DNA of 64,000 nt. Source: Deltaproteobacteria bacterium (GTDB lineage Bacteria; Desulfobacterota; Desulfobulbia; Desulfobulbales; Desulfurivibrionaceae). Of the stretch, positions 6,762-50,268 are shown piece by piece. A program made the translations under genes and the position numbers. The DNA lies in contig JAJZRF010000001.1 in the NCBI GenBank assembly GCA_021847425.1, positions 1 to 64,000 on the forward strand, written 5' to 3'. The number at the start of each line of letters is the position of its first letter. Within the stretch, counting starts at the first letter, position 1. The notes beneath the pieces are model-generated. The model made no database searches, was not told the DNA's origin, and was given only the letters and a program-made list of their open reading frames with translations.

Positions 6762-7872
6762 TCCGGCGCTCCTCTTCGGTGTCGGCAAACCGCAAGGCTG
6801 TCAATCTAAAGGCATCCTCTTGGGCGACGAAGGCCGCCAGGATATCCGGATCAAAATGATGCGGCATGGTCCGGCCATCTCCCTGGGTGATGATCCTTAC
6901 CGCCTCCTGGTGCGAGAAGGCCGGCTTATAGGGCCGCTTGCTGATCAGGGCGTCGTAGACATCCGCCAGGGCCATCAGTCTGCCGGCCAAGGGAATATCC
7001 TCTCCCTTCAACCCCAGGGGATAGCCTGATCCGTCCCACTTCTCATGATGGGTCTGGGCGAATTCCCTGGCAGTGCGGAGGAAGGAGTTGCCGCCCAGCT
7101 TCCTTTCCGCCCCGGCAATGGCGTCGTGCCCGTAGCTGGTGTGCCGGGCCATCGTCTGGAATTCCTCTGCAGTCAGCCCGCCGGCCTTGAGCAGGATGGT
7201 GTCCGGCACCCCCACCTTGCCGATATCGTGGAGGGGGGCCGATCTGTACAGGAGATCGATGGTGGTGTCGTCAAGTATCTCCCTGAACCTGGGGTGACTG
7301 CGAAGATGGGTGGCCAGCAACAGGACATAGTGCTTGGTGCGCCTGATGTGGTCTCCGGTCTCCGGATCGCGGTACTCGGCCAGGGCCGCCATGGAGTCGA
7401 TGGTGACCTCCTGGGTCAGGGCCAGCTCCATTGTCCGTTCCCGCACCCGCTCTTCCAGAAGCTCGTTCTGCCTGGCCAGCTGCTGCTGGGCCAAACGCAG
7501 GGAGAGATGAGTCTTGACCCGCACCCGCACCTCCTCCACCTCAAAGGGCTTGGTGATATAATCCACCGCCCCGAGCTTAAACCCCTTGGCCTTGCTGGTG
7601 ATCTCGGTGAGGGCGGAGAGAAAGATGATCGGGATCTCCCGGGTGGCCGACGACTCTTTCAGCCGGCGGCAGACCTCGTAGCCATCCAGTCCCGGCATCA
7701 TGATGTCGAGGAGGATGAGATCCGGCAGGCTGTTGCGGCTGATATCCAGGGCGGTTTGCCCGTCCATGGCCACCATGATGTCATAGGCGCCGGCCATGGC
7801 GCCTACCAGGACATCGAGATTTTCCCTGGTGTCGTCCACCAGCAGTACCGTGCATCTGGCGAGTTCTTTCAT
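6754..7872 (-). CDS. Response regulator with HD-GYP output domain (predicted cyclic-di-GMP phosphodiesterase)
   Basis: 372 residues. Receiver domain at residues 5-125 (acidic pocket D13/D14, phospho-acceptor D56 in [10 protein letters not shown], lysine in YITKPF), a coiled linker, then an HD-GYP domain at about 150-345: [30 protein letters not shown] and [15 protein letters not shown]. All metal-ligand and GYP signature residues are present, so it should hydrolyse cyclic-di-GMP. It overlaps the stop of the upstream hybrid kinase by four bases (ATGA), which makes it that kinase's likely partner. Confidence 0.93.
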
Positions 7873-10800
7873 TCCGGGCCTCCGTCTTCAAGGGCGGCGA
7901 GGAGCCTTTCTGCAAGTTGCAGGGCCTGCCTGAATTGATAGTTTCCAATGGCCCTGACCAGGTCATTTTTCTCAAGCTGCAGCGGGACAGGCCACTTGCT
8001 TCGGCTGATTTTCGCGACATGCTCGGCGCACTGGACCGGCCGATGGGCCTGGAGGTCGGGAAGCATGGCCGTGAGAAGACCCCGCAGCCGGACCGGATCG
8101 ATGGATGCCCCGGACAGGTCTGTCCGGGGAGAAGGTGGCGCTGGGGGAAGATGCGTCTGCAATGCCTGGATAAGGGCGGCATGTCCTGACTTGAAGGCAG
8201 CAAGCAGCTCGGGGGGGATCTGTTGTGCCTGGCAACCCTTTTCCAGTGCCACCGTAAGCCCGAAGAGTTCCTGGGCGCAGATGGTCCCCGCCACCCCCTT
8301 CAGGGTATGGAGCGCCCGGCCGGCCTCGTCCCAATGCCGTTGCCCAAGAAGCGCGGAGATGGACTCCGCCGCGGTTGCATAGTTTTCAGCAAACTGACAC
8401 AAGATGTTCCGATAGAGGCGGGCATCGCCGATGCGTTCCAGGCCGAGCGCCAGATCAATGCCGGGGATTTCCGCTGGCAGCGGTGCGTCCCCGGCGGACA
8501 TCTCGTCTGACAGCCGGGCGATCTCTTCCGGTCTCTCCTTGGAGGGAATCCACTTTGCCATGGTGGCGAAAAGGGTTTTCGGATCAATGGGCTTGGTGAG
8601 ATGGTCGTTCATGCCGGCCCCAAGGCTGAGCGCCTCATCGCCCTTGATGGCATGGGCGGTCATGGCCACGATGGGCAGGTCCGTCAGCCTTGCCACCCCG
8701 CTGCCCCTGATGCGCCTGGTGGCCTCAAGGCCATCCATGCCCGGCAGCTGGATATCCATGAGCACCAGATCGTACTCGTTTTGCAGCACCATGGCCAGGG
8801 CGGCTTCGCCATTGCCGGCGATCTCCACCACAACCCCCGCCCGCTCCAGGATCTCCCGGGCCACCTGTTGATTGATCAGGTTGTCCTCGACCAGCAGAAT
8901 CCGCGCTCCTTTTACCTGAAGCCTGTGGGCACCGCTTTCCGGCTCCCCAGCCATTGCGGCACCCTTGGGAAGGCCGGAGCCGTACAACTCCATGATTGCC
9001 TCAAACAGGCCGGACCTGCTCACCGGTTTGGTGATCACCCTGTCGCAGCCTGCCTCGAGACAACGGCCGATGACCTCCTCGATCCTGGTTGAGGTGAGCA
9101 CCAGAATCTTGGGTTGGCCGGTGGCAGGTTGCCCTTTCCGTATCGCCCGGGCCACCTTCTCGCCATTCAAGCCCGGCAAGCAGTAGTCAAGCAGGATAAG
9201 GTCGAAGGGAGCCTCACCCCCTCTCCGGTGCAGGATATCCAAGCACGCTTCGCCGCTGGCCGCCGCCTCCACCGTGAAAAAGAACGACTCCAGCGCCCTT
9301 TGCAGGATGGCGCGGGTGGTGGGGTTGTCTTCCACCACCAGCACCCGGAGGTTCCGCCGGTCCGGGTGGGGGAGGAGTGGAGCCGCAGGTTCCGGCGCTT
9401 CGGCAAGGGTCGCGGTGAAGGCAAAGGTGCTGCCCTGGCCCGGTGCGCTTTCCACCCGGAATTCCCCGCCCATCAGTTCGACCAGCCGTTTGCTGATGGC
9501 CAGCCCCAGGCCGGTGCCGCCGTGGGTTCTGCTGATGGAGCCATCACCCTGGCTGAAGGGGGTGAAGAGCCTGGCGAGCTGTTCCCCGCTGATCCCCATG
9601 CCGGTGTCGCGGACGGAAAATTGCAGGATCAACCGGCCGGAGGTGCGCTTCTGGACGGAGATTCCCACCACGACCTCGCCCTGGTCGGTGAACTTGATGG
9701 CGTTGTTGGTGAGGTTGAGCAGTACCTGCCCCAACCGTACCGAGTCGCCGACAAGGCGGTCCGGCACATCGGGGGCCACGCTGAACATGAACTCCACCCC
9801 CTTTTCCTGGGCCTTGAGAGCGGTGATGCCGGCAAGGTCGTCCAGCACCCGCTCCAGGGAAAAGGGATGGGGATCGAGCTCCAGTTTTTGCGCCTCGATC
9901 TTGGAAAAATCCAGAATATCGTTGATCACGCGCAGGAGGTTATTCCCGGAGACGGCGATCTTGGAGAGATAATCGCGCAACTCTGGCGACAGCTCCATCT
10001 CCAGAGCCAGGTGGCTGAGGCCGATGATGGCGTTCATGGGGGTTCTGATCTCATGGCTCATGCGGGCCAGGAAATCGCTCTTGGCCCGGTTGGCCTTCTG
10101 AGCCTCGTCCCGCGCCAGGAGAATGGCCTCTTCCGCCTCCTTTCTGGCGGAGATATCGTTGACCAGCCCCACGGCATGCCATTTCCCCTTGATCAGCAGC
10201 GCCGAGATGGAGAGTTCCGCCGGAAATTCGCTCCCGTCCTTGCGCAGCGCGCTCAGCTCCACCTGATTGCCAACTATGGCGCCTACTCCGTTTTGGCTGA
10301 AGCGCGCAAAGTTTTCCTGGAAGCTTTTCCGGTAGAGGGGCGGCGCGATCAGCCGGTGCAGATCCTGGCCAAGGGCTTCGTCCCGGGACCAACCGAAGAT
10401 CTCCTCCGCCGCCTTGTTCCAGAAGGTGATATGGCCATCGCTGTCCATCATGACAATGGCGTTCAGGGCGGCGGCGGCGATACTCGCCAGTATCTCGGTG
10501 CGCTCCTGCAGGGCATCGGTCAGGTTTTTCCGTTCGCTGATGTCCTCCTTGATCGCGATGTAGCTGACCACCGTGCCGTCGTTGCCGGTAACCGGGGCGA
10601 TGATGACATGCTCCCAGAAGAGGGCGCCATCCTTCTTGCGGTTGCATATCTCGCCCTGCCAGGTTTTGCCGGCGGAGATGGTCTGCCAGAGTTCACGATA
10701 AAATGCCGGAGGGTGTACCCCCGACTTGAGGGAGCTGGGTTTCTTGCCGACCACCTCGGCCTGCGCGTACCCGGTGACCGCGCTGAAGAAGGGGTTGGCG

Positions 10801-12518
10801 TACTCGATGTATCCTCCGGGATCGGTGATGACGATGGAGAGGGGGCTCTGTTCAATGGCCTTGTAAAGCCGCTTGAGTTGTTCCTCGTAGAGCTTCCGCT
10901 CACTGACATCCTCGACCGTGGGCAAAAAGTAGCGGGGATCGCCGTTTTCATCCCTGACCAACCGGATGGTGGTTCTGCCCCAGATAATGTCCCGGTCCTT
11001 GCGGATATACTTCTTATCCGCTCCGGACACTCCCAGGTCCCCGGCCAGGACGCGCTCCAGGTGTTTGAGGCAACCCTCCCTGTCGTCCGGGGGCATGAGA
11101 TCGGGAAAGGCACGGGAGAGCAATTCCTCCTCGGAGTATCCGATCATCCGGCAGAACTCCTCGTTGGCCGTGATGATCTCCCCCTTGAGTCCGAGCAACG
11201 CGGCGCCGAACGGCGCCTTGTTGAAGGTAAGCTGCAACCGGGCCTCGCTTTCCCGCAGGGTCCTGTTGGCAGCCTCCAGCTCCTCGGTGCGCGTCCGCAC
11301 CTCTTCTTCAAGCTGGGTCGCATGATCGGCCTGCGCCTTTTCCCGCAGATCCCTTTCCTCGATGCGGCTGAAGGCGATGGACAGCTGGTCGGCGATGATA
11401 TTGCAGAGGTTGACATCCTCTTCTTCCCAGAACCGTGTCTTCCCCTGTACCGACAGGACAAGGACGCCGACGGTCTTTCCTGCCTGTCTGATGGGAAAAT
11501 TGAGCATGGAGCGGATATCAAGCGGCTTGAGATAGTCTCCCGCGAACTTCCGGAGCAGGGGATGGGTCTGGACATCTTCGGCAACGATGGGGGCTTCCCC
11601 TTTTTTGATGGTCTCAAGGTACCGGGGGAACTCCTCGCCGGCAATGACCGCTTCCCGCGAAAACCGCCCGGTGGCCAACTCATACAGGCAACAACACCCC
11701 AGCCGGGCGCCATCCCCGAGGAACATCCACACAGAGACCCGGTTCACCATCAGATGTTCGGCCAGCCAGGAGGTGATCATCTCGTACACCGGCTCCATGG
11801 CGGCGGTGTCCCGGCAGAAACGGCTGAGCTGGGAGATGAACTGCTCCCGTTCTTTTTTTTCGGAGATGGTTTCCATGGCGTGTTTCCGCGCCAGATCATA
11901 GCGGTGGAAGACCAGAATGGTGAGCAGGGCCAGGGCCACGCTCGCCAGGATCATGCCGACCTGAATCTCCAAAAGAAAGGCCTTGTCCTGATCCCTGGAC
12001 TGCCAGAGAGATGCCTCCAGGGTATTGGTGGTATCGATCAGCCGACTGAAGGCGTCATCGTATTGCAGGGTCAGAGCGGAAGCGGCCTCGTGGCCCGCCT
12101 GGGCTTGCAGCCGTTGGTGGCCCAACAGGCGCAGGGCATTGAGTTGCGCGGTGATCTCCTGCAGAGTCCCCTCAAATCCTGCCGGGGAATAGTGATGGAT
12201 CAGTGACTCCTCCCTGTTGGATATGGGCAGCAGACGGGCCTGCTCGATGGCCCAGTCCAGCCGTTCCTCGACTGCTTCGGGATTCTCCTCCCGATTCCCC
12301 CCCAGGATGCGCTCGAGGGCGAGGTGGGCCGAGGTGGCGCTGCCACGCAGGTTGCTGAGGTATTGAAGCTGTTTTTTGTGGAACTGCCCCAAGGTGCTGG
12401 TGAAAAAAACGCTGAAGACCTGCATGGAGATGATGGCGAGAAGAAAAAGCGCCGCAACGATACGTCTCAGCCAGAGGGAGATAAAGGTCCGATCCTTGAT
12501 GGAGGGAGGGGCGGGCAT
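7869..12518 (-). CDS. Large membrane-bound hybrid histidine kinase (GAF, 3x PAS, HisKA, HATPase, 2x receiver, HPt)
   Basis: About 1,549 residues. Order: membrane segment near 18-40, extracytoplasmic sensor of about 150 residues, second membrane segment near 188-210, GAF domain (about 235-385), three PAS domains (about 420-805), HisKA with the phospho-histidine in [16 protein letters not shown], HATPase with the G boxes GISGEQL and GGTGLGLAI, two receivers ([14 protein letters not shown] and [14 protein letters not shown]) and a C-terminal HPt ([12 protein letters not shown]). It thus carries a complete phosphorelay in one chain. ATG at 12518 is preferred to an upstream TTG at 12539 because GAAGGA lies at correct spacing before the ATG. 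The HD-GYP regulator is coupled downstream, so the signal probably sets cyclic-di-GMP level. The input signal is unknown. Confidence 0.92.
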
Positions 12519-12731
12519 GTCGAATCCTTCGGTTGTCAATGGGGTTCAGGGGCTGGCCCCCTTGCATTGCTTAGTAATTATAATAAATTATGCTCTATAC
12601 CCCCCTGATTGTGCAAGACCTCTCTGGCCGGTAATTTTTTTACTCGACCACAACCGGCACGGCGTGTAGATTTGGGGGCTGTCCCCCAGGGGGGATAAAG
12701 ACAACGGCACATTTCCAGGGAGCGCTACCCC

Positions 12732-45116: not shown

Positions 45117-47636
45117 ATGGGCCTCTCCTCCGTGCTGAACATCGCCAAACAGGCGCTCCTCGCCCACCAGCTTTCCATCGAGGTGGCGTCGAATAATATC
45201 GCCAATGTTGACACCCCCGGCTACACCAGGCAATCACTGGAACTGGAAGCCAACAATGCGACCCCCATCAGCGCCGGCATGCTGGGCGGCGGCGTCACGG
45301 GGACAAAAATCCTGCGAAGCTACGACCAGTTCATGGTGCAAGAGCTTGCCAGCCAGCAATCAGGCTTGGGCAACCTGCAGGCGCAGCAGGACTCCATGAA
45401 GCTGGTGGAAACCGTGTTCAATGAAGCGCCTGGCCTGGGCATCAACGACCTGATGAGTAAGTTCTGGAGCAACTGGCAGACCTTGGCCGACAGCCCGAAT
45501 GTGCCCGCGACCAGACAGAGCGTGATCCAGTCAGCCCAGACGATCATTGATCAGCTGCATACCATGACCGGCCAAATAACCCAGGCCAAATCCGACATCG
45601 GGACCAGTCTTGACACGGCCGTGGGAAGTGTCAACTCCACCACCAGCCAGATCGCCAGTCTCAACGTGCAGATTGCCACGGCGGAATCCGCGTCCGGGGG
45701 CCAGGCCAACGATCTGCGCGACAAAAGGGACTCTCTGGTCCAGAATCTTTCCAAACTGCTGAAGGTCTCTTATTTTGAGGATAAGAACGGCAATTACACC
45801 GTTCTCATGGCCGATGGCCACAGCCTGGTGCAAGGCGATCAAGCCTCGAAGGTGAACTGGGCGAATGATCAGCTTCTCCTGGTAAGCAAAGACAGCAAGG
45901 GCGCCGAAACCACCCAGGCCATTGGCAACGGGGCTGCGCTGGGCGGCCAGATCGGGGGCTGGCTTGAGGTAAGCAACAATTTGGCCGAAGGGAACCCAAA
46001 CAATATCCTTGGCCAATTGAATGCCTTTGCCAACTCCCTGATCCGCGAGGTCAACCAGCAGCATTCCCAGGGGGTCGGGCTTACCCTGTTCAGTTCTCCC
46101 CTGACCGGTTCGGAGCAGGACAATAATGTCGCCCGCCTCACCTCCACCCTGGACCCGAGCTCTGTCTCCGCAAACACGACCATCCCGGCGGGCACCATCA
46201 CCATCAATGACCGGCCGGTGGGCAAAATCACCGGCGGCCCAGCGGTAAACGGCCTGGCCATGACCAAGGCCGCCAATGCCGTGACCGCCATCAACAATGC
46301 AGCGACCGGGGTCACCGCCAAGCTGACCACGCTGATGGCTGGCGCCGCAGTGACAGATCCGGGGGCCGCCAATGTCGGCAGTACCATCTCCTTTGACATC
46401 AACGGCGTTGCCGTTAACTACACCATAGCTCTCGGCGATGTCGGCGCCGGCAACGCCTCCACTTTTGCCGGCAATCTGGTTGGCGCCATCAATACCGCCC
46501 TGAACACCTATAATGGGCTGTCCACAACTGCCAATCCCATCACCATCCAGGCTGCGGTCGGAGACGGAACCACCAACGGCGGAGCGCTCAATGCCATTGT
46601 CCTTACAAATACCAAGCCAGGCGACCAGTCAAATATCATTGTCGGCAACCTGACCTCCTCCGTGGCCGGCGTTGCAGCTTCCACCGGTCTCACCGCCGGC
46701 ACCTACAACGCCGACGCCACCCACAACACCGGACAGCTCACCCTGTTTTCCACCAGCACCTTCACCCTCAAGGCCGGTTCAAATGATTACATCCTGGCTC
46801 AGCTTGGCCTTACCGGACCCACCGTCTCTTCCTTTGACACGCAATCCGGAGATGGCACCATTCAATATGGCCCGGCCACCAAATCTGAAGGCCCGCTGCT
46901 CACCGGGTACAATTACGCTGACCAACTGGCCACGGACAAGGGCAGCTTTGATATCTGGCTTTACAACAAGGATGGCTCCCTGGCCATGCCCCAGCCCGTT
47001 ACCGTTTCCCTGAACCGCGACTACGACCTGAACGACGTGGTCCACTCCATCAATGCCGCCATGACAAATGCCGGCGCCGCAGGCATGGTGACGGCCTCGA
47101 TTTCCGGCAACAGCCTGTGTCTCACCCCGGACGCCACCCACCAGTTCGCCTTTGCCAACGACACCTCCAATTTTCTCCAGGTTGCCGGACTCAACACTTT
47201 TTTTTCTGGCAACAGCGCGGCAAGCATCGGCCTGAACAGCCTGATTACCAACGATCCCAACACCCTTACCGCAGCCACCGTCGGCTCGCAGGGACAAATA
47301 TTTTCCGGGGACAACTCCAATGCCCTCAAGATCACGGCCATCCAGAACGATACGTCTGTTGCCTTCACCGGCGGCTCACCAAACACCCTGGATGGCTTTT
47401 ATAATTCCCTGGTCGGCCAGGTTGGCAATACCACGAGCAGCCTCGGCCAGTCCTACGATTCCAGTGTGCTGATCAACCAGCAGGTGAGCGCCATGCGCGA
47501 TTCGGTCTCCGGCGTTTCCCTGGACGAGGAAATGGCGAATCTGATCAAATACCAACAGGCATACACCGCCGCCGCCCGCCTCATCACCATGTCGGACGAT
47601 ATGATGAAGACCCTGCTTGCCGCGGTAGTGGGATAA
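45117..47636 (+). CDS. flgK: Hook-filament junction protein FlgK, with an inserted module
   Basis: 839 residues against about 550 in E. coli. N-terminal LSIEVASNNIANVDTPGYTR and C-terminal DSVSGVSLDEEMANLIKYQQ with AYTAAARLITMSDDMMKTLL are conserved. The extra length is mid-protein, about residues 400-560 (AKLTTLMAGA through DQSNIIVGNLT to ILAQLGLTG), Thr/Ala/Asn-rich and shared with FlgL. The inserted part would face outward from the junction. First of two HAP proteins in the operon. Confidence 0.95.
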   Translation: MGLSSVLNIAKQALLAHQLSIEVASNNIANVDTPGYTRQSLELEANNATPISAGMLGGGVTGTKILRSYDQFMVQELASQQSGLGNLQAQQDSMKLVETVFNEAPGLGINDLMSKFWSNWQTLADSPNVPATRQSVIQSAQTIIDQLHTMTGQITQAKSDIGTSLDTAVGSVNSTTSQIASLNVQIATAESASGGQANDLRDKRDSLVQNLSKLLKVSYFEDKNGNYTVLMADGHSLVQGDQASKVNWANDQLLLVSKDSKGAETTQAIGNGAALGGQIGGWLEVSNNLAEGNPNNILGQLNAFANSLIREVNQQHSQGVGLTLFSSPLTGSEQDNNVARLTSTLDPSSVSANTTIPAGTITINDRPVGKITGGPAVNGLAMTKAANAVTAINNAATGVTAKLTTLMAGAAVTDPGAANVGSTISFDINGVAVNYTIALGDVGAGNASTFAGNLVGAINTALNTYNGLSTTANPITIQAAVGDGTTNGGALNAIVLTNTKPGDQSNIIVGNLTSSVAGVAASTGLTAGTYNADATHNTGQLTLFSTSTFTLKAGSNDYILAQLGLTGPTVSSFDTQSGDGTIQYGPATKSEGPLLTGYNYADQLATDKGSFDIWLYNKDGSLAMPQPVTVSLNRDYDLNDVVHSINAAMTNAGAAGMVTASISGNSLCLTPDATHQFAFANDTSNFLQVAGLNTFFSGNSAASIGLNSLITNDPNTLTAATVGSQGQIFSGDNSNALKITAIQNDTSVAFTGGSPNTLDGFYNSLVGQVGNTTSSLGQSYDSSVLINQQVSAMRDSVSGVSLDEEMANLIKYQQAYTAAARLITMSDDMMKTLLAAVVG

Positions 47637-47649
47637 AAGGAGAAAAGCC

Positions 47650-50268
47650 ATGCGGATCACCACGCAGACCATCAATAACACGATTCTGACCAACCTCAAC
47701 AATATCACCACCGGCATGGCCAAGCTCAATGCCCAGATTTCCTCGGGGAATCAGATGGCAACGATCTCCGATAACCCGGTCAATATGGTGACGGCCCTAA
47801 TTCTCAGGACCAATCTCACCCAGATCACCAACTACCAGAACAATCTCAGTTTCGGCAACACGGCCATCAACGCCGCGGAAAACTCCCTCACCCAGATGAA
47901 GGATCTGACCATGCAGGCAAAGACCCTGGCGATTCAGCAGGTAAACGCCTCGGTAAGCCCGGAAAATCGGGCCAGCGCCGCGCAACAGGTCAACAACCTC
48001 TGGCAGGAGGCCATTACCCTTGCCAACAGCCAGGTGGCCGGCCAATACGTGTTCGGAGGCTACCGGACCACCGGCTACACGGCAGCGGAACCGGCGCCGT
48101 TTATCGCCGACATGGGGAGCGGGTATCAGGTCAACGGCAACAGCATTGCCGGCACGAGCCAGATGCTGACCGGAACGGTGGACAACACCCCCCCCGCCGA
48201 CCTTGTTGCGGGCGATGTGCGGATCAACGGCACGGACATCGGTCCGGTCACGCTCAATGTCGCGGCCAGCAACGGCCTCAACATGAGCGGAGCGTTCAAT
48301 CTCGCTACCAGTGTCAATGGCGCAGCCACCAGCCCGGCAGTCCCCGCAAAACTCACTACACTATACGCAGGTGCGACCGCCACGGCGGGAAACAACACCG
48401 TCTCCTTCACCTTAAACACCGTGCCGATCAGCTACTCGACAACGGCAGTCGATGCCTTAACAGCGGCGAATGATGCCATAGCCGCAATCAACAGCAAGAG
48501 CAACCTTACGGGGGTCACAGCGATACGCGGTACCGGCACCAATGGCGGAGGATTGAACTCCGTGGTTTTGCGCAACGCCCTAACCGGAGACCAATCGAAC
48601 ATCGCCATCGCAGCCTATACTGAATCTGGCCCCGGCAGCACGGGCCTCGCCAACGTCAACCAAGCCGCCGACGCCACCCACAACACCGGCCAGATTTCCC
48701 TTTCCTCCGCCGGAGCATTCACCATCACGACCAGCGCGGCCGACGACACCATTCTCAACCGCATCGGCCTCGGCGGCGGCAAAGGCTTTGCCGATACGGC
48801 AGGCGATGGCGTCCTGCGTTATGCGGCGCAAGGCATTGCCCTGGCAGCCGGCGATCTGACCATCAACGGCACCTCCATCGGTCCTTCCGTAGACGCCTCT
48901 GCCACAGCCAAGGCCAAAGTGATCAACGATGCTACCGCCACCACAGGAGTTACGGCCAATATCACCCCGGCCTCCCACACCGCCACGGGTGCGGTGGAAG
49001 CCGGCCCCCTCGGGCAAATGCAAACCGGCGATCTGGTCATCAACGGCGTGAACATCTTTGACGGCACCTCGACAACCAATGCCAACCCTGCCCCGGTCAT
49101 CGCGGCGGATACGGACAACACCATCCTCAACGCCATCAACGCCAAAACCGGCAGCACCGGCGTCCTGGCCACCAGGAACAGCACCGGCGTTATCTCCCTG
49201 ACCGCCATCGACGGAAGGAATCTGGAAATCCAGACCTCCATCAATGGCGAAAATATCACCCACCTGAACGGCACGCCTTCCGATACCGCTTATTACGGCT
49301 CCATACAGCTGACTTCAGCCAATCCGTTCTTTGTGGATACAACGCCGAGAGTCGGCTCCTTTGAACCTGGATTGGAAAACCTTGGCCTCGCAGGCGGCGC
49401 GGCCAAAACCGGCGAAAGCAAAGACATTGCCGGCGACGGCCAACTCCAGGTGGTCACCATCCGGAAAGATACGGGCAATGTCCGCTATGCCGGAGACCCC
49501 AACAACGATATGTCAGTCATGATTGGCTCGCAAAGCACCCTGTCCGTTGCCAAAAACGGGCAAGCGGCTGTGGCGGACACAGGGATCTTTACGACGCTCA
49601 AACAATTTGAAAATGCCTTGAATGGGGTAAAGTTCAGCACCGTCACCGGAACCTATCAGGCCACGGACATCAACGCCACGCTTGGCAGCGGCGCCACCGG
49701 CCTTGAACAGGCGGATACCCCCTTTACCAATGGCGCCATTTCTGTAACCGTGACTGACAATTCCTATTCTCCGCCCAGAAATTCGACCATGGATGTCGGG
49801 GTGGATACCACAAAGGACAGCCCCGCATCCATTGCCGCCAAAATAAACGGCATTCCGGGGATGACCGCCGCCTGGAACGCCGACGGCACCCTGAAGCTGC
49901 AGACCAGCGACACAAGCCGGTATTCCTTTACCGTCACCGACACCAGCAACTTTCTTGCGATGGCGGGCATCACCAACGAACAAATGCAGGTTCAGGCGAT
50001 CAACAAGTCCATTGGCGACTTCGATACGGTAATGAACAACGTGACAAACCAGGTCTCCGATTTCGGCGCCCGTTCGAACCGGATCACTGTCCAGCAACAG
50101 ATTTATTCAAACCTTGGGCTGTCCACCAAGTCAAATCTTTCGGACAAGGAAGACACCGATCTCACCCAGGCCGTGATGGATCTCCAAAGCAAAACAACCG
50201 CCTACCAGGCGGCATTGTCGGCGGCTGCCAAAACCATGCAGCTGAGCCTGGTGGACTTCCTCAAGTAA
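47650..50268 (+). CDS. flgL: Hook-filament junction protein FlgL, strongly enlarged
   Basis: 872 residues against about 300-500 usually. Conserved ends are [40 protein letters not shown] and, at the C-terminus, [20 protein letters not shown]. The middle carries the module shared with FlgK (about 231-375: [29 protein letters not shown]) and three GDL-x-INGxxI flagellin-insert motifs (residues about 186, 399 and 458). The insert should be surface exposed. 13 bases separate it from flgK. Confidence 0.93.

Follow-up and report, generated by a model that had tools for sequence, protein, structure and literature searches.

Recombination at fliC follows a familiar pattern, in which conserved D0/D1 flanks enclose a hypervariable, exposed centre that is exchanged like a cassette. 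Such reshuffling of outer domains is textbook knowledge for flagellin, of which each filament contains thousands of copies. The hook-filament junction proteins FlgK and FlgL form thin rings at the joint of hook and filament and are usually regarded as structural adapters. Here we describe the genes flgK and flgL in a window of 64,000 nucleotides from a member of the Desulfobulbales (positions 1 to 64,000 of contig JAJZRF010000001.1, assembly GCA_021847425.1), both of which encode copies of one homologous module inserted between conserved ends. With its conserved D0/D1 flanks, its variable and presumably exposed centre and its cassette-like exchange, the system resembles fliC, but it concerns junction proteins instead of flagellin, and the flagellin of the same genome lacks the type A form of the module that is described below. 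Reshuffling is known for flagellin, whereas a literature search, with most subscription journals outside its reach, did not reveal any paper that describes nested FlgL modules or an exchange between FlgK and FlgL.

Structural studies provide a second comparison. The D2 domain of Xanthomonas FlgL resembles the D2 domain of FlgK; in the published model, both are attached to the helical D1 and exposed (PMC6155364). The outer domains of FlgK vary between taxa, and in Burkholderia pseudomallei the D3 domain of FlgK folds like its own D2 (PMC5691160). The likeness of the D2 domains in Xanthomonas FlgL and Burkholderia FlgK is a structural one between different species, whereas the copies in the order of the window are homologous in sequence, repeated, nested and exchanged. 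A third comparison is offered by the Flagellin_IN repeats of flagellins and FliD, which share with our module the motif pair AGDLxINGxxIG ... AINxxxxxTGVxA. Here, however, the motifs are found in FlgK and FlgL and belong to a larger unit of ~205-230 amino acids with an exchangeable core.

The explanation which we consider likely is that in this order both junction proteins carry homologous modules of an exposed type and old origin, that the copy in FlgK is stably inherited, that copies in FlgL are gained, lost and nested, and that the core of the module is exchanged at two short motifs, LTTL and ADATHNTG. Together, this would represent a diversification, driven by recombination, of the surface exposed at the junction of hook and filament.

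Homologous modules in FlgK and FlgL

The genes flgK (45117-47636, 839 amino acids) and flgL (47650-50268, 872 amino acids) adjoin within a flagellar gene cluster; they and all features within them are located on the forward strand. The first encodes hook-filament junction protein 1 (TIGR02492, E 1.4e-99; PF22638 at residues 96-322 and PF06429 at 797-834) and the second hook-filament junction protein 2 (TIGR02550, E 2.5e-53; Flagellin_N at 3-139 and Flagellin_C at 791-871). Over the conserved ends, both passed the curated cut-offs of the respective families (334.4 versus 170.75 bits for FlgK and 181.8 versus 127.2 bits for FlgL). A first-pass annotation, which was made from the sequence alone, had regarded both proteins as overlong. 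This excess is real, because module-less relatives from two sampled families of the same order have a FlgK of 459 and a FlgL of 312-346 amino acids.

The same annotation had placed a related segment at about residues 400-560 of FlgK and 231-375 of FlgL. The comparison of one protein against the other by BLASTP extended this segment to residues 358-584 of FlgK and 187-391 of FlgL (40% identity, E 9e-19). We designate as type A the module of FlgK and the optional copies of FlgL, and as type B a constitutive, diverged copy in FlgL. The type A module of FlgK (46188-46868; 228 bits with the hidden Markov model (HMM) of the module) lies between the helical parts of D1, and its counterpart in FlgL (48208-48822; 226 bits) is missing from FlgL in about half of the genus to which the window belongs. 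A leader of about 17 residues precedes the optional FlgL module (48157-48207; approximate ends, with alignments and sequences judged by eye). The type B copy (residues 400-601, 48847-49452; 250 bits with HMM B) had been overlooked in the first-pass annotation and was found with an iterated module HMM; it contains two Flagellin_IN motifs (PF07196, E 6.7e-08), and its homology to type A is evident from a profile-profile comparison (E 4e-18). At an approximate site within type B (49012-49032; HMM position ~63, just before a stretch of 10 residues) relatives nest a type A copy, and this site is empty in the window. Behind the modules, FlgK and FlgL have a second domain of ~90 amino acids in common, also overlooked before, which extends approximately over residues 599-697 of FlgK (46911-47207) and 686-779 of FlgL (49705-49986; profile-profile E 5e-10).

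Three landmarks that had been named for the shared segment, AKLTTL, GDQSNI and ADATHNTGQ, are indeed present in both genes at the places given for them. GDQSNI is located at 46620-46637 in flgK and at 48586-48603 in flgL. The other two coincide with the boundaries of exchange described in the next section: LTTL (46323-46334 in flgK, 48352-48363 in flgL) marks the 5′ edge of the core and ADATHNTG the 3′ edge (46709-46733 with the motif itself at 46710-46733 in flgK, 48666-48690 with the motif itself at 48667-48690 in flgL, each including a 24-base run identical in both genes). The core of the FlgK module, defined as the segment that is swapped in FlgK of three relatives, corresponds to 46335-46709, and the core of the FlgL type A module to 48364-48666.

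In the likely explanation given above, the module would be an outer-domain unit of the Flagellin_IN or flagellin D2-D3 kind, set between the conserved D0/D1 helices. Both copy types carry two stretches of the motif pair mentioned before, and Flagellin_IN (PF07196) matches all of the 22 type B copies (E up to 0.1) and 10 of the 33 type A copies (best E 1.6e-06). The type B copy of the window passes the Pfam gathering score with 33 versus 22.7 bits; for the type A copy of its FlgK no Pfam match was obtained. Solved flagellins from Campylobacter, Helicobacter and others (9ygu, 6x80, 9yh1 and 6b5b) are matched by the type B profile with E values of 1.7e-17 to 2e-11. An AlphaFold2 model of FlgK residues 345-600, computed from ten rows, reached a predicted local distance difference test score (pLDDT) of 82 and a predicted template modelling score (pTM) of 0.79. 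The core in this model (about residues 400-544) bears a suggestive resemblance to the outer domains of FliC and FliD (4nx9 and 6iwy; root mean square deviation 3.1-3.2 with 102-103 aligned residues), and the best E value obtained with Foldseek was about 1e-3. The D2 domains of Xanthomonas FlgL and B. pseudomallei FlgK are absent among the best 50 structural matches listed for the core model, and the second shared domain is an equally good candidate for a D2 beta-sandwich of their type.

Distribution of the module and exchange of its core

The module was searched for in the genomes of relatives, which are denoted by G-numbers. Type A was detected in 73 out of 258 genomes of the class, all 73 belonging to the order of the window, and among 395 genomes across the phylum the sole match outside the order was a weak one (E 1e-9). 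Apart from this match, the module was found only within the Desulfobulbales among the genomes searched. Two families sampled within the order have plain FlgK and FlgL proteins without the module. In FlgK a single type A copy is nearly always present and begins near residue 356. FlgL of all the examined genomes that bear the module possesses one type B copy beside its C-terminal half and, in addition, zero to four type A copies. At least 10 genomes, among them G011, G013, G015, G017, G018, G025, G031 and G223, have a type A copy nested within type B, where it separates the two Flagellin_IN halves near HMM position 63. The tree built from FlgK and FlgL outside the modules (43 genomes) requires at least 16 changes in the type A copy number of FlgL and at least 8 changes in nesting. 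Two further arrangements were seen. In several genera (L051, L053, L058, L060, L067 and L075), the first module of FlgK is followed directly by a further one that is incomplete and evolves fast (HMM positions about 47-210), and two genomes harbour two flgK-flgL sets with differing FlgL architectures (L096 and L097 in G243, L100-L102 in G242).

The modules of FlgK form one clade (support of 99 in the Shimodaira-Hasegawa-like approximate likelihood ratio test, SH-aLRT; 100/100 for the module ends). The FlgK copy is stably inherited across the order, and the origin shared by the FlgK and FlgL copies is old. A duplication of an outer domain between the two genes, as first proposed, is supported, though it dates far back.

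Even sister species differ in the type A copies of FlgL (G001/G003 and G004/G010). A simple in-frame deletion was rejected as the origin of the module-minus FlgL, since in both pairs the linker ahead of type B differs as well; replacement of the whole allele accounts for this better than a loss confined to the module. In flgL of G001 and G004, the divergent block comprises type A and the first part of type B. At shared positions of this block, identity amounts to 62-75% with the module-minus sister and mostly to 75-88% between the two carriers, and outside the block the sisters are mostly 83-98% identical.

Exchange between the two genes is seen in FlgK of the three sister species G004, G005 and G006. 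Their module ends are of the FlgK type, whereas ~105 residues between LTTL (column 45) and ADATHNTG (column 156) are FlgL-like: the identity of this core is ~0.22-0.42 to other FlgK proteins and ~0.55-0.78 to the FlgL type A copies of G001, G002 and G004, with the relation reversed at the ends. In the genus set, the tree of the ends has a single FlgK clade (100/100), and in the tree of the core the three FlgK proteins join three FlgL proteins (100/99). The next relatives of this mixed group in a larger core tree are all FlgL, which suggests a direction from FlgL to FlgK. Most simply, the core would have moved from FlgL to FlgK in these three species. A comparison of FlgK from the sister species G010 and G004 yielded synonymous divergences (dS) of 0.16 and 0.26 in the flanks and of 1.38 in the module.

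The window itself is affected in FlgL. The ends of its type A copy are 0.77 identical to those of G002 and G004 from the same genus, with values of only 0.35 and 0.32 for the core. This core is nearest to that of G017 (0.67), which belongs to another genus and shows an identity of only 0.52-0.58 in the FlgL backbone. Judged by these identities, the copy is a mosaic, with breakpoints again near LTTL and ADATHNTG. Over all genomes, the ends of the FlgK module track the backbone (r 0.84), and the cores hardly do so (r 0.15). It is likely, within the same overall explanation, that exchange took place mostly between flgL alleles of different species or genera and once, detectably, from flgL to flgK.

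Within the genus, the mean identity is 0.80 for D0/D1 of FlgK, 0.70 for its module ends and 0.54 for its core, and for type A of FlgL it is 0.62 at the ends and 0.40 in the core. The ratio of nonsynonymous to synonymous substitution rates (dN/dS) of the FlgK module is higher than that of D0/D1 in six of six close pairs (0.17-0.62 versus 0.07-0.37).

Several points weigh against the explanation as a whole. The average dN/dS of the module is below 1 in all six close pairs, so that the FlgK module appears to be under relaxed or episodic change and positive selection is unproven. A single FlgK clade for the core was rejected in the genus set by the approximately unbiased (AU) test (p 0.0028), but the chimera was already known when this test was made, and in a larger set of 94 rows, including one mislabelled flagellin row (G089), a single clade was not rejected (p 0.37). 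The core trees are based on few columns and contain long branches that may meet. The relatives are represented by one genome per species, mostly metagenome-assembled genomes (MAGs), and not by a population sample or cultured strains. The assignment of the FlgK core to the D2-D3 fold of flagellin and FliD is suggestive only, because phage tail proteins score nearly as high as FliC and FliD against the model, and the VIA Z score of 7.4, just under 8, may reflect merely a common arrangement. The model of full-length FlgL was poor and unusable (pLDDT 46). Finally, we infer the exposure of the module on the outer surface of the hook-filament junction from its position between D1 segments and from published structures (PMC6155364, PMC5691160).

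Common ancestry, changes in copy number, nesting, core exchange at common edges and occurrence in unrelated classes of protein are shown by the data. In a possible mechanism, the conserved D0/D1 parts, the module ends and the repeated GDLxING motifs would provide the homology for recombination, with DNA that may be imported or may stem from unequal exchange between the repeats. By this means the exposed core could vary while the flanks stay conserved. The benefit would probably be an altered outer surface of the junction rings, comparable to the effect of the outer domains of flagellin on the filament; the drivers may be phages, grazers, partners in adhesion or hydrodynamic demands. If exposed domains are exchanged across genes and species, nested and moved to other surface proteins, then something, such as phages binding close to the hook, grazers, attachment or the display of glycans, acts on this small patch. 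Close relatives in this order form natural plus/minus pairs, and the module is a clear case of cassette exchange at the level of domains with edges readable from the sequence.

Alternative explanations

A quasi-homotypic contact has been proposed for the D2 domains of FlgL and FlgK (PMC6155364), and the modules could accordingly be kept alike by like-to-like contacts of the two rings, with exchange serving to keep the pair matched. The genes of G004, which carry the same core type with 54% identity over the module, agree with this. However, copies from the same genome are barely more alike than copies from different genomes (mean identity 0.397 versus 0.376). In addition, FlgK of G005 and G006 contains the FlgL-type core and their FlgL is devoid of type A; in G001 and G002 this core is confined to FlgL. 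With these values and mismatches a need for matched proteins is unsupported, and we regard this alternative as unlikely.

Purely vertical inheritance of an old outer domain by both proteins, which changed fast and was lost differentially without any exchange, would account for the single clade of FlgK modules and for module ends that track the backbone. It is at odds with the supported conflict between core and ends trees in FlgK of G004, G005 and G006, with the jump of dS within the module between G010 and G004, with the mosaic copy in FlgL of the window and with the presence or absence of modules between sister species, in which the ends of the block diverge. In our view it is quite improbable.

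Still less probable is that flgK and flgL underwent gene conversion recently in the lineage of the window itself, with the identical 24-base run as its trace. This run had been reported at 46709-46732 and 48666-48689, which is exact, and it lies in a repeat of 94 nucleotides with 72% identity. But 21 of the 192 FlgK-FlgL pairs taken across genomes also share runs of at least 24 bases (24-31), nearly all of these runs lying at ADATHNTG. The window's flgL shares runs of 24-30 bases with flgK of several other genomes, those with G005 (30) and G003 (27) being longer than the run with its own flgK. Moreover, the two genes of the window use the same codon no more often (0.43) than pairs from different genomes do on average (0.47). 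Since equal runs are found across genomes and same-codon use is ordinary, the run was rejected as a sign of conversion in this genome. At ADATHNTG, synonymous sharing between FlgK and FlgL over expectation is 0.18 on average versus 0.04 elsewhere, which may be taken as weak evidence for recombination at this joint, and short tracts could have been converted there at some time. The gene conversion that the first-pass annotation had suggested is therefore not supported for the window, but conversion or a transfer of segments is seen in its relatives G004, G005 and G006.

Artefacts of assembly or binning at repeats, conceivable because most relatives are MAGs with many contigs, are the least credible source of the chimeras and copy-number changes, as the same chimera is present in three separate assemblies (G004, G005 and G006), copy number varies also in assemblies of few contigs (G007 with 3 contigs, G019 with 1 contig, G015 with a 783-kb contig) and the frames are open throughout.

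The module in other proteins and further observations

Outside the junction proteins, one type A copy each, together with a leader like that of FlgL, was detected in giant proteins of G029 (1900 amino acids), G018 (a fragment of 1278 amino acids) and G253 (2474 amino acids). They are encoded at L068:3828-9527, L076:1-3834 (the fragment, without the DUF4347 end) and L088:1552-8973; those of G029 and G253 start with DUF4347. The site of insertion is identical in all three, namely in a cadherin-like repeat between SATLL (SAVVL in G253) and IRFVP, and the other cadherin-like repeats of these proteins are uninterrupted at that site. By eye, leaders similar to that of FlgL precede the nested copies as well as those in the DUF4347 proteins. 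The presence in proteins of this surface type fits a generic role as an exposed domain. On this basis one might tentatively propose, as a possibility with less than even chances, a promiscuous module throughout the lineage that is transferred as a unit, either with its leader or as the bare core, among junction proteins and giant DUF4347 proteins, enters loops including its own by recombination at edge motifs and thereby diversifies a flagellar surface other than flagellin. When 50,697 phage records were searched by tblastn with the FlgK module, no match was obtained, and the type B profile found no relative among viral contigs.

Type B is present in a flagellin of 1158 amino acids in G032 (L072:190-3663), with a single full copy and four others that are partial and diverged. 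In the window's own genome, for which flagellins with the same module had been suggested as a check, the flagellin (contig C7) has the Flagellin_IN motif, and the type A module was not found in it. This flagellin (L001, G000:C7:40875-44030) is longer than 800 amino acids and has a long run of SGSTLASGST-like repeats in its outer region, an enlargement unlike that of FlgK and FlgL.

Elsewhere in the window, the reverse strand encodes a hybrid sensor kinase of 1556 amino acids with GAF, several PAS, HisKA, two receiver and Hpt domains (7872-12539). The long open frame on the opposite strand (9114-12206), for which no Pfam match was obtained, looks like a shadow frame.

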